DNA from: Methylomonas albis
Lineage (GTDB): Bacteria; Pseudomonadota; Gammaproteobacteria; Methylococcales; Methylomonadaceae
Direction: 5' to 3'
Assembly (NCBI RefSeq): GCF_014850955.1
Contig: NZ_JACXSS010000001.1
Span: 2,914,001-2,978,000, forward strand
Length of the DNA stretch: 64,000 bases
Below are positions 36,874 through 63,599 of this stretch, one piece after another; positions within the stretch are counted from its first letter, which is position 1, and each line of letters begins with the position of its first letter. Both the position numbers and the translations under genes were made by a program. The notes under the pieces were generated by a model, which saw nothing but the letters and a program-made list of their open reading frames with translations, did not search any database and was not told the origin of the DNA.

Positions 36874-38304
36874 TTATTTCCAACCACCACCCAACGCTTT
36901 ATAAAGGGTAATCGTCGCCAGTCGCTGTTGCTTGGTAACATTGATCAGTTGCAGGTTCGATTGCAACGCACTTTGTTGCGCAATCAAAACTTCCAAATAA
37001 CTGGCTCTGGCGGATTTATATAACTCATTGGCCGCCTCGACCGATTGTTTCAATACCTCGCTTTGTTGCTTTTTGAGTGCGCTCATTTGTTGCAGGCTTT
37101 TGATATTTGACAGCTGATTAGCGACCTCAACATAGGCATTCAGAATGCTTTTCTGATAGTTATACATTGCACTCAGTTGATTGGCCTGGGCGGTGTTAAA
37201 TGCGGCTTCCAATGATTTCATGTTGATGATAGGCGCCACCAGGGTTCCAGCAAGCGAATATGCTAGCGAGGCGGGCGAGGTAAACAAAAATTCCGGGTTG
37301 AACGCCTGAAACCCTAAGCTGGCGGTAATGTTGAAGTTGGGATAGAAAGCCGCCTTGGCTGCCTGCAAATCGAATTTGCTGGCTTCGACTTGATGTTCCG
37401 CAGCACGCACATCGGGACGGTTGATCAATAACTGCGACGGGATACCGGCAAGGACTTCTTTGGGTAGCGCATCGAAGAACTCGGTTTTCGTCCGCTCGAT
37501 GGGTTGTGGATAGCGGCCCAGCAAAAAATTGATGTTATTTTCTCGCTCGCTAATTTGTTGTAGCAGCGTTTTTTCCAATACCTGGCTATCGAGCAGTTGC
37601 GCATTGAATTGTTGAACCGCCAGCAGATTTGCCCTGCCGGCTTCTTTTTGTATCTGAATGATTTCCAGCGCTTCCTGTTGTTTTTGGATGGTCTGCCGGA
37701 CAATATCCAGCTCATTATCCAATGCCAATAGTTCGTTGTAGTAAATAGCGACATCGGTTACCAGGTTGGAAATCACAAAATGTGTGGCTTCAATACTGGA
37801 CAGGTAGTTTGAAACAGCCGCTTTACGCTGGCTTTCCAGTTTACCCCAAACGTCGACTTCCCAAGACGACTGCAAGCCGATAAACATATCGGGCAAATTT
37901 TCCGGAACGATTTGACCGGGCCTGATTTCAGTTGTCGCATTACCAGCGCCATCCATCGTGTAAAGCCCAAACTTACGCACACCGCCGCCCACATTCAAAC
38001 TGACTTGCGGCAGCATGGCGGCATTTGCCAATTTCACGCTGGAACGCGAGGTTTCAATGCGTTGCAAGGCCATTTGCAGATCGAGGTTATTGCCGACCGC
38101 TGTATCCAGCAATTTGAGCAACAGCGGATCGGCAAAATAATCTCGCCAGTTAATGCTGGCTACGGCGGTGCTAACTTGTTTATCGTTAAAGCTGTCCGGA
38201 AGCGGCTTTTCCGGGATCGACAAATCGGTATTTAGATTTGCGCACCCGCTAAAGCCCATGATCACGAAGAAAAGAACGAATGGGTGAAAAACTTTAGGTT
38301 CCAT
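36874..38304 (-). CDS. RND efflux outer-membrane lipoprotein (NodT/OprM family)
   Basis: 476 aa. Lipobox in VIMGFSGC; the TolC-like fold shows two repeats of long coiled coils (NNLDLQMALQRIETSRSSVK; AQANQLSAMYNYQKSILNAY). The family forms the outer-membrane channel of tripartite pumps. It follows the RND gene by 6 bp on the same strand, so it is part of the same operon with the broken adaptor gene. Confidence 0.92.
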   Translation of the reverse strand: MEPKVFHPFVLFFVIMGFSGCANLNTDLSIPEKPLPDSFNDKQVSTAVASINWRDYFADPLLLKLLDTAVGNNLDLQMALQRIETSRSSVKLANAAMLPQVSLNVGGGVRKFGLYTMDGAGNATTEIRPGQIVPENLPDMFIGLQSSWEVDVWGKLESQRKAAVSNYLSSIEATHFVISNLVTDVAIYYNELLALDNELDIVRQTIQKQQEALEIIQIQKEAGRANLLAVQQFNAQLLDSQVLEKTLLQQISERENNINFLLGRYPQPIERTKTEFFDALPKEVLAGIPSQLLINRPDVRAAEHQVEASKFDLQAAKAAFYPNFNITASLGFQAFNPEFLFTSPASLAYSLAGTLVAPIINMKSLEAAFNTAQANQLSAMYNYQKSILNAYVEVANQLSNIKSLQQMSALKKQQSEVLKQSVEAANELYKSARASYLEVLIAQQSALQSNLQLINVTKQQRLATITLYKALGGGWK

Positions 38305-38310
38305 GAGCGA

Positions 38311-41300
38311 TCACAGGGATTCAGTGAATGGGACTTCATCTTTTCTGCCGCCGAGATGATTATTGTCGGCCTTGCCGGCAAATACCACATATAAGCCGGG
38401 AATCACGATGACGCCGAAAAAGGTTCCAAATAGCATGCCTCCGGCGGCGGCCGAGCCGATGGTATTGTTACCAATTTCTCCAGCGCCCGAGGCAAACATC
38501 AACGGAATCAGACCCGCGATAAAGGCTAATGAGGTCATTAAAATCGGTCGTAACCTTAAGGTGGCGCCTTCAATAGCCGCAGCATACGGCGACTTGCCGA
38601 GTCGATGTTGCAAGCTAGCAAATTCGATGATCAGAATGGCGTTTTTGCCGAGAATACCAATCAGCATAATCATGGCGATTTGTGCGTAGATATTGTTTTC
38701 CAGGCCCATGATCCATAACATGAACAGCGCGCCGAATATACCAATGGGCAACGACAAGATCACCGGCATCGGCAACAGAAAGCTTTCGTATTGGGCTGCT
38801 AGCAGAAGATAAACAAACAACAGACAAATCATAAAAATATAAATGGCCTGATGACCGGCATTGGCCTGATCCCGAGACGAGCCGGCCCAATCGTAGCCAA
38901 ATCCTTTGGGCAGTTTTTTCGCCGCCACGTCCTTGATGGCGTCGATGGCTTGGCCACTGCTATATCCCGCTGCCGGTTGGCCGTTGACCATGGCCGAGGT
39001 GTACATGTTGTAGCGCGTCACCTGTTCGGGGCCATAGACTTTTTCGATGTGCAGAAAAGCGGAAAACGGCACCATCTTGCCGGCATCGTTTTTGATATAC
39101 AACTTCATCAGATCATCGGGCTGTGCACGGTATTCCGGCAGCGCCTGCACCATGACTTTATACATCTGACCAAAACGGATGAAGTTGGTCGCATATTCGC
39201 TGCCGATCAAGGTTTGCAAGGTGCTCATGGCATTTTCGGCGGTGATGCCTTTTTGTGCCGCCTTGTCGCCGTCGATATGCAGCACAAACTGTGGGAAACG
39301 CGCGTTGAAGGTAGTAAAGGCATTGACGATTTCCGGTCGTTTGTTCAATTCCTCGACAAACAGGTCGGCGACTTTCTGCAATTGTTCGAGACTGCCGCCG
39401 GTTTTATCCAACAAGCGCATTTCAAAGCCGCTGGAATTGCCGTAGCCCGGCACCGGCGGTGGCGTGAAAAACTCGATACCGGCATCCTTGATATGCTGGG
39501 TCTTTTCTTCCAATACCCCAATGACTTCCTTATCTGAGACGCTTCGCTCGCCCCAGTTTTTCAAGCTGATCAGATTCATGCCGTACACCGCGCCACTGCC
39601 GTCCGACAGCACACTGAATCCCGCCAAGCTTGATACTGAGTTGACGACTTCAAGTGAGGCGGCGATTTTCTGCACGTCATCGACCACTTTTTCGGTGCGT
39701 TCCAGCGTCGCGCCGGAAGGCGTGGTGATGTTGGCGTAAATGGTGCCTTGATCCTCTTCGGGGATAAAACCCGTCGGCACATTGGCGCCTATCAAGCCGG
39801 CGCCCAGGGAAAACCCCAGCAAGATGGCAAACGTGATCAGTCGGCGATTGGCAATGGCGCCGATCAGTGTCTTGTAGCGGGCGGCCAGTCCGTCATACCA
39901 GTGATTAAATCCGCCAAACAGTTTTTGTAACCGGGTGGCTTTTTGCTGGGAGTGGTGATGGCTTTTAAGCAGCAAGGCGCAAAGTGCCGGCGTCAATGAC
40001 AGCGCGGTAATGCCGGACAACACAATCGAGAAAGCCATGGTTAGCGAGAATTGCCGGTAAAAAATGCCGCTGGGTCCGTCCATAAATGACACCGGCAAAA
40101 ACACCGCCGACATGACCAGTGTGATGGCAATAATTGCACCGCTGATTTCGCGCATCGCTTGTTCGGTGGCTTTCATCGGTCCGATATGCGAATGTTCCAT
40201 CTTGGCATGCACAGCTTCAATGACCACGATGGCGTTATCAACGACTATGCCGATAGCCAGTACCAGGGCAAACAGGGTAATCAGGTTCAGGGAAAACCCC
40301 ATCAGTTGCATAAAGAAAAAGGTGCCGACCAACGAAACCGGTACCGCCAGAATGGGGATTAGGGTGGAGCGAAAGTCCTGTAGGAAGATAAACACCACCA
40401 AGGCCACCAAGACAAAGGCCTCGATCAAGGTTTTAATCACTTCATGGATAGAGGCGTCCAAAAACTCGGAAACGTCGTAAGTCAAACTGTAATCCATGCC
40501 GGGTGGAAACGAGTTGGCTTTGATTTCTGTCATGGTTTTTTTGATATTGGCGATGACTTCCTTGGCATTACTGCCGGGCCGTTGTTTCAGCATAATGGCG
40601 GCGGAAGGTTGGCCGTTTTCCTTGGACAAAACATCGTAGTCCTGCGAGTCGAACGCCACTTCGGCAACATCCCGTAAGCGCAATAGTTCACCATCTTCCT
40701 TGCCGCTCAGCACGATGTTTTCATAGGCTTCCTGGGTGTTGTGCTTGCCGGAGTATTTCAAGATGTACTGCAACGCTTGCGCGTCTCGCCCCGAACTTTC
40801 GCCGATTTTACCCGGCGCGGCCTCGACGTTTTGCGCCCTTAGTTTTTCAATGACTTCGGTAGGCGAAATGTTATACATCAGCAACTTATCGGGCTTCAAC
40901 CAAACCCGCATCGCATATTCCCGTGAGCCCATAATGTCGGCAAAACCGACCCCTTCGATGCGTTTCAACTCTCTCAACACATTGATGTCGGTAAAGTTGT
41001 AGAGAAATTTTTCATCCAAGGTCGGGTCTTTACTGAGGATGTTGACGTACAGCAGCATGCTGTTTTGCACTTTCTCGACGATGACTCCCGACTTGATCGC
41101 TTCTTCGGGCAGTTCGTCCAACACCGATGCCACGCGGTTTTGCACGTTGACCGAGGCGACTTCCGGGTCGGTGCCGGCTTTAAAAATAATCTGGATCACG
41201 CTGACGCCATCGTTACCGGAAACCGACGACATATAGGCCATGCCCGGTACGCCGTTGATGGCCCGCTCAAGCGGAGTGACGACTGCCTTGACGCAGGCTT

Positions 41301-41466
41301 CGGCATTGGCGCCGATGAATTTTGTCGTGACATTGACTTCGGGCGGGGCGATATCGGGAAACTGAGTAACCGGCAGTTGAAATAACGACAACAGCCCTAG
41401 CAAGGTAATCAAAATGGATATAACGATCGACAATACCGGCCGATGGATGAATTTGGCAGTCATCAT
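38311..41466 (-). CDS. RND multidrug efflux transporter (AcrB/MexB, HAE1 family)
   Basis: 1051 aa with 12 expected membrane helices and two large periplasmic loops. N-terminus FIHRPVLSIVISILITLLGL, VTQFPDIAPPEV, the charged proton-relay helix LALVLAIGIVVDNAIVVIEA (Asp pair region), and the second-half TM motif LLIGILGKNAILIIEFA are typical. It pumps drugs or other hydrophobic compounds using the proton gradient. The adaptor gene upstream is disrupted, so the pump may not work unless another adaptor serves it. Confidence 0.93.
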   Translation of the reverse strand: MMTAKFIHRPVLSIVISILITLLGLLSLFQLPVTQFPDIAPPEVNVTTKFIGANAEACVKAVVTPLERAINGVPGMAYMSSVSGNDGVSVIQIIFKAGTDPEVASVNVQNRVASVLDELPEEAIKSGVIVEKVQNSMLLYVNILSKDPTLDEKFLYNFTDINVLRELKRIEGVGFADIMGSREYAMRVWLKPDKLLMYNISPTEVIEKLRAQNVEAAPGKIGESSGRDAQALQYILKYSGKHNTQEAYENIVLSGKEDGELLRLRDVAEVAFDSQDYDVLSKENGQPSAAIMLKQRPGSNAKEVIANIKKTMTEIKANSFPPGMDYSLTYDVSEFLDASIHEVIKTLIEAFVLVALVVFIFLQDFRSTLIPILAVPVSLVGTFFFMQLMGFSLNLITLFALVLAIGIVVDNAIVVIEAVHAKMEHSHIGPMKATEQAMREISGAIIAITLVMSAVFLPVSFMDGPSGIFYRQFSLTMAFSIVLSGITALSLTPALCALLLKSHHHSQQKATRLQKLFGGFNHWYDGLAARYKTLIGAIANRRLITFAILLGFSLGAGLIGANVPTGFIPEEDQGTIYANITTPSGATLERTEKVVDDVQKIAASLEVVNSVSSLAGFSVLSDGSGAVYGMNLISLKNWGERSVSDKEVIGVLEEKTQHIKDAGIEFFTPPPVPGYGNSSGFEMRLLDKTGGSLEQLQKVADLFVEELNKRPEIVNAFTTFNARFPQFVLHIDGDKAAQKGITAENAMSTLQTLIGSEYATNFIRFGQMYKVMVQALPEYRAQPDDLMKLYIKNDAGKMVPFSAFLHIEKVYGPEQVTRYNMYTSAMVNGQPAAGYSSGQAIDAIKDVAAKKLPKGFGYDWAGSSRDQANAGHQAIYIFMICLLFVYLLLAAQYESFLLPMPVILSLPIGIFGALFMLWIMGLENNIYAQIAMIMLIGILGKNAILIIEFASLQHRLGKSPYAAAIEGATLRLRPILMTSLAFIAGLIPLMFASGAGEIGNNTIGSAAAGGMLFGTFFGVIVIPGLYVVFAGKADNNHLGGRKDEVPFTESL

Positions 41467-41482
41467 GACGCTTCCCGCTCCC

Positions 41483-42866
41483 TTAATTTGATGATGGTAG
41501 GGCTTGCGCTAAATCGATGGGCTTTGCGTGTATCTTGTCGCCATCCTTCATGCTTTCCACGCCTTCATAGACGATGCTGTCATGCTCGGATAAACCGGAT
41601 TCGATCACATAAAAATCAGGAAAGCGCATTTTCGGTACGATATTGCGCTGCTCAAGTACGCCATCCGTGTTAACGACATACACATACAGTTTGTCCTGTA
41701 CTTCAAAGGTCGATTTCTGCGGCACAAACAAAGCCTGTTTGAGTGGCTTGTTGACGATGATTTTGCCATTGGAGCCATGCTTCAACAGCCTTTCCGGATT
41801 AGCGAACCGGGCTCTGAAGGCGATGTTGCCGGTGCTGTGATCAAACTCGCTTTCGATCATTTCGATTTTTCCGGCATGGGGATATAAGACGTGATTGGCC
41901 AGTTTCAGGCTCACGCTATCTGTCTGTTTATCGTTTGCCGAAACATAATTGAGGTAATCGATTTCTGATAGATTGAAATAAGCAAATACTTCCTGATTGT
42001 CTGAAATCGAGGTGAGCATATCGCCGTCGGCAATCAAACTGCCGACTTTATTGGGAATCCGATTGACGAAGCCGCTGAACGGCGCTTTGATTTGCGCAAA
42101 GGAAAGGTTCAACGCGACTTGTTCTTTATTGGCCGCCGCTTCGTCCACATTGGCTTTCAGTGCCTCGACCTTGGCTTTAACGATTGCGAGTTCACCTTCC
42201 GCCACGATGTTTTTTTCCAGTAGTCGACTGACATTTATCACTTCAACTTCCGCCGCTTTCAAATTGGCTTGAGCGCTTTTATGGGCCGCATTAGCCTTTT
42301 GCAGCTCTCGCTGAAAATCTTGGAAACGGAGCGCAAGCGAAGTGAAGATTTTTAGTCCCCGATAGCCGTAGCGCCGGGCGGGTTTTCGCAGCGAAGCGGA
42401 GAAAACCTGCAAGGCATCGCGACACGGCGTCAAGTCATGCGAGAGCCGATGTTTCGACCCCCTGTTGGGTCGAAACGAGGTGACGCGGACGAATCGGGGC
42501 CGCCGAAGGCATAAACTGCCAGCAAATTTTTCGCGCTGAAATCGGATGGGACCCATTTCAGCTTTACCGAAAAATGCTGGCGCTCCTGTTTTCGAATTCC
42601 ATGAAACTCAGGGTGAATAACAGTTGCCCTTCTTTGACCGCTTGTCCCTCGTCGACATGAATTTTTTCGATATGCCCTTTGATTCTGCTCCTGACTTCGA
42701 CATAGCGTACCGACTGAATTTCGGCAACATACTCGCTGCTGTAGCTGGTGTCCTTGACGATGGGATGAATCACCTCGTGGGTATCGACTTGAGTCGGCGG
42801 CTTTTCGGTGTTGCAGGCTGCCATGCCCAAACAAAGCATTAGCAACAAAATTTTGCTGATTTTCAT
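41483..42866 (-). pseudogene. RND efflux periplasmic adaptor (MFP), interrupted by a ~277-bp structured element
   Basis: The first part (42866 to about 42594) encodes a lipoprotein signal (LCLGMAAC) and the biotinyl/lipoyl-like start EIQSVRYVEVRSRIKGHIEK followed by DEGQAVKEGQLLFTLS, then runs into foreign sequence with an early stop. From about 42316 the adaptor resumes (FQRELQKANAAHKSAQANLK, alpha-hairpin; FAQIKAPFSGFVNRIPNKVG; later barrel and membrane-proximal domain). The intervening DNA matches the repeat at about 63160-63430. An in-frame open stretch through the insert from 42556 could allow an internally started product without export signal. Most likely this adaptor is inactive. Confidence 0.85.
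42317..42593 (-). mobile_element. Structured dispersed element, copy 1 (inserted in the adaptor gene)
   Basis: About 277 bp that splits the adaptor gene. Reading on the minus strand it contains an outer/inner hairpin (42581-42518: TGCTGGC-type outer arms at 42575-42581/42518-42524 and ATTTCAGC/GCTGAAAT arms at 42535-42562), then the block GCCTTCGGCGGCC, GTCCGCGTCACCTCG, a perfect 10-bp stem GTTTCGACCC (42451-42476), GGCTCTCGCATGA, CGATGCCTTGCAG, stem GGTTTTC/GAAAACC (42381-42407), CCGCCCGGCGCTACGGC, CGGGGACTA and ends near CGTTTCCAAG. It encodes no protein. Copy 2 shares the unpaired blocks and has changed but still paired stems. Candidate: mobile RNA element of HEARO/omega-RNA or MITE type. 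Confidence 0.75.
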
Positions 42867-63159: not shown

Positions 63160-63430
63160 GTATATCGGCGTGTGTCGGCTTCCGGCGGTAAAGATTATTC
63201 ACCATCCCTGAGTGAATAATCACGCCTACACCGTCACGGTGATTGCCTTCGGCGGCCTTGGCCGTCCGCGTCACCTCGGCTTTGACCCAACAAGGGGATC
63301 AAAGCCTTGGCTCTCGCATGATTCGACGCCGTACCGCGATGCCTTGCAGTTTTTCTAATCGAAAAACCGCCCGGCGCTACGGCTTCCGGGGACTACACAA
63401 CCTTTACTCGCTTACGTTTCGTTTCCAAGG
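63160..63430 (+). mobile_element. Structured dispersed element, copy 2
   Basis: About 270 bp, related to copy 1 at 42317-42593 (reverse orientation). Shared unpaired blocks: CGGTAAAG (63186-63193), GCCTTCGGCGGCC, GTCCGCGTCACCTCG, GGCTCTCGCATGA, CGATGCCTTGCAG, CCGCCCGGCGCTACGGCTT, CGGGGACTA and CGTTTCCAAG. Three hairpins differ in sequence but still pair: GATTATTCAC/GTGAATAATC (63193-63221), GGCTTTGA/TCAAAGCC (63278-63306) and GTTTTTC/GAAAAAC (63349-63367). No protein is encoded. It lies in the 560-bp gap after the nhaD-linked gene. Confidence 0.75.
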
Positions 63431-63599
63431 TTTCGCAGCGGATGCGCTTCACGCTGTTCAGTACATCCTAGGGCCCTGCCAATGATGTCAAATTACCTAG
63501 TTCGTTTCAAAATCCAAATTTAGGTGCCCGCACTTCGTATCTTGTAAGGTATTCCAATTGAAAATTCATTAACAGGTTCGCCATGGCTACCCTGTTCGA

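Follow-up and report, generated by a model that had tools for sequence, protein, structure and literature searches.

The window analyzed here is a stretch of 64,000 nt from Methylomonas albis (contig NZ_JACXSS010000001.1, positions 2,914,001 to 2,978,000 of the forward strand), and it contains two copies, A and B, of a noncoding repeat, the first of which interrupts a gene (Table 1). An initial annotation, made from the letters alone, had described two copies sharing six sequence blocks; both the copies and the blocks proved real, with coordinates off by up to ~10 bases. A 37-base pattern composed from copies A and B occurred only at those two sites in the window, with 0 occurrences expected by chance. 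Joining the flanks of copy A restored a continuous frame (...LSFMEFE/KELQKAN...). We take the broken gene to encode a membrane-fusion-protein-like product, the joined frame being as expected of that family, and to belong to a presumed RND-type efflux operon (window 36874-42866, minus strand). Copy A has a 100% match elsewhere in the M. albis genome, and relatives of copy B in congeners show 91-93% identity. Hereafter, the "reader's strand" is the minus strand for copy A and the plus strand for copy B, as in the initial annotation, and the "complement" is the opposite strand.

Table 1. Features of the two element copies and of the interrupted gene (coordinates are those of the window).
Feature	Position	Strand	Description	Basis
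Element copy A	42309..42588	-	280 nt, type CAGGAGCGCC...TTTTCAGCG	Ends common to copies with unrelated flanks
Element copy B	63165..63440	+	276 nt, type TCGGCGTGTG...TTTCGCAGCG	Ends by comparison
Copy A, long left-end hairpin	42517..42582	-	Sequence varies by element type	A4 helices 15-18, alignment A1
Copy A, left arm of long-range core-closing helix	42493..42499	-	CCCCGAT	A4 helix 3
Copy A, right arm of long-range helix	42357..42363	-	ATCGGGG	A4 helix 3
Copy A, right-end terminal hairpin	42311..42355	-		A4 helix 1
Copy A, conserved target base	42305	-	G at +4 of right flank	Flank comparison
Copy B, G at +4 of right flank	63444	+		Flank comparison
Gene interrupted by copy A	41483..42866	-	1149-nt open frame	Joined flanks (900-base flanks)

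Copies A and B are members of a large family of mobile elements of ~270-310 nt that lack an open reading frame (ORF). The M. albis genome contained at least 26 matches to copy A (best 40 of 44 candidates scored), 18 of which were near full length, with 98-100% identity and unrelated flanks. The proposal in the initial annotation that a noncoding element had inserted into a gene was thereby borne out, both by the interruption at copy A and by the many copies in unrelated surroundings. DNA matches were found in 30 of the 61 genomes of the host's family. We built a covariance model (R1) from the right-hand 132 nt of the element, and it matched 119 of 201 genomes of the host's order (37 of 48 genera). 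At class level, 34 of 369 genomes matched (28 of 272 genera), and 31 of these 34 lie outside the host's order. A pattern scan yielded at least 120 stretches carrying the element; among the matches listed, the hosts were Methylotuvimicrobium, Methylomonas, Ca. Sedimenticola endophacoides, tubeworm symbionts, Thiocystis, Thiorhodococcus, Ca. Thiodiazotropha, and others, and the carriers include many methane-eating, sulphur-oxidising, and symbiotic bacteria. Plasmid searches gave matches in Methylomonas, Methylobacter, and Methyloprofundus, and viral contigs gave three (L355 being the one read); a phage search with copy A gave none. The element family matched no Rfam family, and none reached threshold anywhere in the window. 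The literature searched on such elements contained no description of this one. A published report (PMC4853749) describes miniature inverted-repeat transposable elements (MITEs) in Thiomargarita, among them one that has 10-bp direct repeats.

A high copy density was seen in Ca. Sedimenticola endophacoides (G582), sampled as the first 20 kb of 100 contigs (1.122 Mb). This sample contained 108 full-length copies at 100% identity (rounded percentage) and 51 partial copies, 48 of which ran into the end of a contig or stretch. Of the full-length copies, 92 were letter-for-letter equal to one 300-mer, which points to a very recent burst. Variant types and nested insertions were also observed. In a second class-level type (L204-L206, L208, L210, L211, L213, and L216), a GCGGGGGGCGTCGCAC-like sequence replaces GGGGACTA and the right end differs, and genome G544 carries a second, diverged type. 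A B-type copy lies inside an IS1595-like transposase gene with similar flanks in two genomes (L031; L109 5148-5422), a group II intron match adjoins a second element copy in L109, and copies occur inside IS200-type tnpA genes in two genomes (L019/L154 and L134). Between element ends, no ORF-bearing version was found among L095, L098, L107, L108, L109, L134, and two internal partial copies of G582, a survey that left out L445 and L110-L114 and included no search aimed at short conserved ORFs. The candidates for an autonomous version were set aside because they were truncated, held a nested insertion, had an internal deletion, or lay in another insertion sequence.

We then compared insertion sites. 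For the Sedimenticola-type element we compared 63 flank pairs, in which 55 left and 59 right flanks were distinct. The two sides had 2 nt in common in five pairs, 3 nt in two, and 4 nt or more in none; in the G582 sample (n = 86), 2, 3, 4, and 5 nt were common in 6, 3, 1, and 0 cases. This lack of target duplication contradicts an ordinary MITE moved by a DDE transposase, a reading otherwise suggested by the small size, the missing ORF, and the high copy number. The element ends, in addition, did not resemble inverted repeats in the alignment when inspected by eye without a repeat finder.

The right flank, by comparison, followed a rule. A G at position +4 was present at 60 of 61 sites of a mixed set, at 134 of 138 sites of a second set (152 ends, less 5 without a recognizable end and 9 that were repeats or cut short), in all 63 Sedimenticola-type flank pairs (59/59 distinct right flanks), and, in the G582 sample, in 72 of the 74 right flanks that were distinct; these sets overlap. 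Weaker preferences (n = 63) were A or G at +1 (52/63) and G or T at +3 (49/63), with G at +5 in only 2 of 63. Left flanks carried at most 0.13 bits in the 63 pairs, and position -1 of the mixed set, where G is rare, carried 0.38 bits. The sole strong target rule is thus the right-flank G at +4. Since the fourth base of the element itself was G in 22 of 25 aligned copies, both junctions resemble ^NNNG; a separate count of 48/48 was not used because the search patterns had required that G. The rule also fits L134, where a diverged copy, its boundary read by hand, lies in an IS200-type gene from a different family.

Orientation within genes was informative in one respect. Of 48 exact-ended copies, 10 lay sense and 6 antisense to long frames and 32 lay where no long frame was found; because a one-base control gave nearly the same totals (9 and 8), we used from these counts only that both orientations occur. 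Copies in genes in both orientations indicate that the element is not an intron, and this bears on mobilization by a reverse transcriptase in the manner of a group II intron or a retron. Structure, the missing target duplication, and four reverse-transcriptase matches (PF00078) in the M. albis genome would suit such a retroelement. The domain was, however, found in 8 of 14 carriers and not in the other six (G208, G049, G544, G250, which is a single contig, G542, and G582), and a group II intron search gave no match on copy A or B; together with the two orientations, these results make a retroelement the most improbable of the explanations considered.

We next examined the fold. The initial annotation had reported that the stem GTTTCGA/TCGAAAC of one copy becomes GCTTTGA/TCAAAGC in the other and that GGTTTTC/GAAAACC becomes GTTTTTC/GAAAAAC, and both compensatory changes are readable in the two copies, as is the hairpin after CGGTAAAG, whose arms differ between the copies and are self-complementary in each. 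On the reader's strand, RNAalifold predicted 30 pairs from 25 copies, 21 with compensatory changes, and alignment A2 (20 sequences, 24 pairs) had 43 cells changed on both sides versus 9.8 +/- 2.5 in shuffles, none of 500 being as high. On the complement, alignment A4 (22 sequences) gave 57 pairs with an energy of -47.5 kcal/mol, and 28 of them showed compensatory changes. In a 91-pair complement structure from A4, 90.1% of cells were paired and at most 45.8% when the structure was slid, a control that favours the structure, which was derived from the same sequences. Double changes occurred at 45 of its 91 pairs versus 23.8 in shuffles, and 148 cells were changed on both sides versus 45.5 +/- 5.0, with 0 of 500 shuffles as high in either case; the shuffles leave the relatedness of the sequences in. 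The fold begins on the left with a long hairpin and ends on the right with a terminal hairpin, and between them a long-range helix closes the core. At the loop CGCTNNCGCT near the right end, a dinucleotide of the terminal hairpin varied even among otherwise near-identical copies.

The fold of the element is conserved and under selection as a single strand. The functional fold claimed in the initial annotation held up beyond two copies: covariation was strong in the wider alignments, target duplication of the standard MITE kind was lacking, and neither of the two outcomes named there as evidence against it was observed. An ordinary MITE could in principle show such pairing if its palindromes were kept perfect by template-switch correction and not by selection, as template switching can yield double changes in local hairpins. 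The long-range helices covary too, with changes on both sides in 2 of 7 pairs of A4 helix 3 and 3 of 5 pairs of helix 4, and with the target data this makes an ordinary MITE very unlikely.

Which strand carries the fold was assessed using 36 non-redundant copies chosen from 107 full hits. With RNA parameters, the consensus energy was -32.7 kcal/mol for the complement versus -19.5 kcal/mol for the reader's strand, and as single-stranded DNA (ssDNA) the complement was more stable in 36 of 36 copies. At three helix positions, G.U on the complement was present in 34/35, 35/35, and 34/36 copies, with A.C on the reader's strand. When G.U was forbidden in folding, 88 pairs were common to both strands, and these contained 98 complement wobble cells versus 62 on the reader's strand. 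In a class-wide core alignment (51 sequences left from 102 after removal of short rows and rows at least 90% identical), the counts on the reader's strand were 942 Watson-Crick, 17 G.T, 25 A.C, and 87 other, which corresponds to 25 complement versus 17 reader's-strand wobble cells. Evidence on the other side was the base of the left hairpin, where the reader's strand is favoured by 5 cells to 1, and the default reader's-strand fold, with G.T in 46 and A.C in 13 cells, 36 of the 46 in one three-pair helix. If wobble is permitted when the pairs are selected, the strand used for the selection gains, whichever of the two it is. The complement thus appears better supported and is favoured, not proved, the wobble evidence being mixed. 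The initial annotation had folded one strand, and by energy its complement folds better.

The complement fold contained 2652 Watson-Crick, 301 G.T, and 63 A.C cells (~10% wobble). The acceptor, D, and T stems of 12 tRNAs in the same DNA contained 251 Watson-Crick, 25 G.T, 0 A.C, and 10 other (25 of 276 standard pairs), the tRNA finder itself preferring G.U. The wobble share of the complement is RNA-like, but the fold may still act as ssDNA; an earlier argument for DNA over RNA from the few wobbles on the reader's strand was dropped after the complement was folded.

An RNA-like fold raises the question of a guide-RNA element, in which the fold would be the omega-RNA- or reRNA-like scaffold of an unrecognized RNA-guided nuclease, one flank would serve as the guide and NNNG as the adjacent motif, and the nuclease would keep the element in place, as proposed for IscB/TnpB. 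The flank logic is the same, one side being without information and the other having a short conserved motif, and the whole-element fold with covarying long-range helices and tRNA-like wobble would suit such a scaffold, although the pairs behind that wobble share had been selected in a folding that permits wobble. The initial annotation had suggested a HEARO/omega-RNA or IS200/605-derived element and proposed the HEARO covariance model as a check. RF02033 gave no match at E<=10 on copy A or copy B; in the same type of search, iscB loci of related genomes (L115, L116) scored 102.6 bits (gathering 83) and 42 bits (below it, E 1.4e-5). The IscB/RRXRR domain PF14239 was not found in the M. albis genome; it was full length in 2 of 42 genomes, with shorter matches in 13 more, and BLAST did not find the element in the loci with RRXRR matches (L115-L122). 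Membership in HEARO/omega-RNA was rejected on these grounds, and the IS200/IS605-like part of that suggestion (no ORF, a fold, and no duplication) stands. One TnpB used in tblastn gave no match in the 1.12-Mb G582 sample, no genome-wide TnpB search being made, and no ORF-bearing version was seen; we therefore consider a guide-RNA element unlikely. A tnpB gene lies beside the element in L081, where the element obeys the NNNG rule; this was taken as chance, not proved. Short frames in several Methylomonas relatives (e.g., L121 1279-1674, the one inspected) matched only the first ~48 RRXRR positions; they probably represent some other gene, which may belong to an integrated conjugative element.

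HUH single-strand transposases typically insert without duplication and with a base rule on one side, and we therefore regard as the likeliest mechanism, with a probability of about 0.5, that of a non-autonomous, HUH-like single-strand transposon with a helper in trans. The element would move as a folded single strand, with cleavage and rejoining on the 3' side of C-N-N-N in the complement, and the enzyme would be supplied in trans, in the manner of IS200/IS605 and IS91.

Regarding that enzyme, all 20 genomes of a set that mixed carriers and non-carriers had the Y1 transposase domain (PF01797), as did 23 of 25 carriers of a second set and 9 of 12 genomes of a third. The search for IscB or TnpA proposed in the initial annotation, negative for PF14239, gave eight Y1 matches in the M. 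albis genome (best 9.7e-8), yet Y1 was undetected in copy-rich G208, G544, and G582, the 1.12-Mb sample of the last containing two Y1-like fragments. One RAYT scored 8.2e-4 in M. albis, which is near the limit, so that a RAYT may have been missed in other genomes. RAYT genes, which we assume to be present in the M. albis genome and in G086, were rejected as helpers: those of M. albis sit among other palindromes, several headed GTAG, as judged by eye. Genome G072 contained 106 Y1 matches. Among those listed, the majority have a single in-frame TGA and score almost identically in other respects; they are a large IS200-like copy family with a common internal stop. The Y2 domain (PF04986) was found in 6 of 17 genomes, with four matches in G582.

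Several observations weigh against the HUH-like reading, the Y1 results in the three copy-rich genomes among them. Y2 was not found in 11 of 17 genomes, including M. albis, G141, G040, and G250, and none of the families tested (Y1, Y2, and reverse transcriptase) was found in every copy-rich genome; several genomes are drafts, and TnpB, IS110, and serine or tyrosine recombinases were not searched genome-wide. IS200/605 targets are fully specified over 4-5 nt and are not one base. Empty-site evidence is thin: the one clean paralogous site, in G582 (78% over 198 nt), aligned across the joint without gain or loss of a base, the next one compared (82% over 76 nt) had a one-base gap there, and a third was uninformative. 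Frames of at least 900 nt ran across the joint in 10 of 48 copies, and in 7, 6, and 10 after removal of 1, 2, and 3 bases; this test barely discriminates. No replication-strand bias could be shown by eye from copy strands, the origins not being located. The scant data on empty sites and the failure to find a helper keep our confidence at the value given above.

A tentative further possibility, to which we give clearly less weight, is that the family represents a novel class of mobile element. The unit of ~280 nt would carry no gene, and its folded strand, as RNA or ssDNA, would be the recognition part for an enzyme other than Y1, Y2, reverse transcriptase, or IscB, with only NNNG needed at the target and ~100 identical copies reached per 1.1 Mb. 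The element is widespread in one bacterial class, interrupts genes, and breaks a symbiont assembly (G582) into pieces, yet no Rfam model fits it. As no tested helper family occurs in every copy-rich genome, the search for the helper is well posed, with the copy-rich hosts as starting points, and a small mobile unit with a one-base target rule could become a tool.

Finally, we compared the element with known systems. HEARO/IscB omega-RNA elements resemble it in size (~300 nt), structure, flank logic, and the possible lack of an ORF, but differ in the RF02033 result and in iscB, which was absent from most carriers searched. REP/REPIN sequences with RAYT are likewise ORF-less palindromes, but they are smaller than the element and fold differently. 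IS110/IS1111 elements, which use a bridge RNA, have a sequence-specific target on both sides, unlike the left flank described above. IS91/ISCR elements (Y2) make no duplication and have conserved bases on one flank only, as does the element, but the distribution of PF04986 does not match. ORF-less IS200/IS605 derivatives (PATE-type) share the lack of duplication, the conserved bases on one flank, and the terminal hairpins, IS200/IS605-type hairpins being present near both element ends (A4 helices 1 and 15). They differ in that the element has one conserved base, the G at +4, in place of a fixed tetra- or pentanucleotide, in its covarying whole-element fold, and in the three copy-rich genomes in which Y1 was undetected. 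The element thus joins a guide-RNA-like covarying fold with the insertion habit of single-strand transposons.
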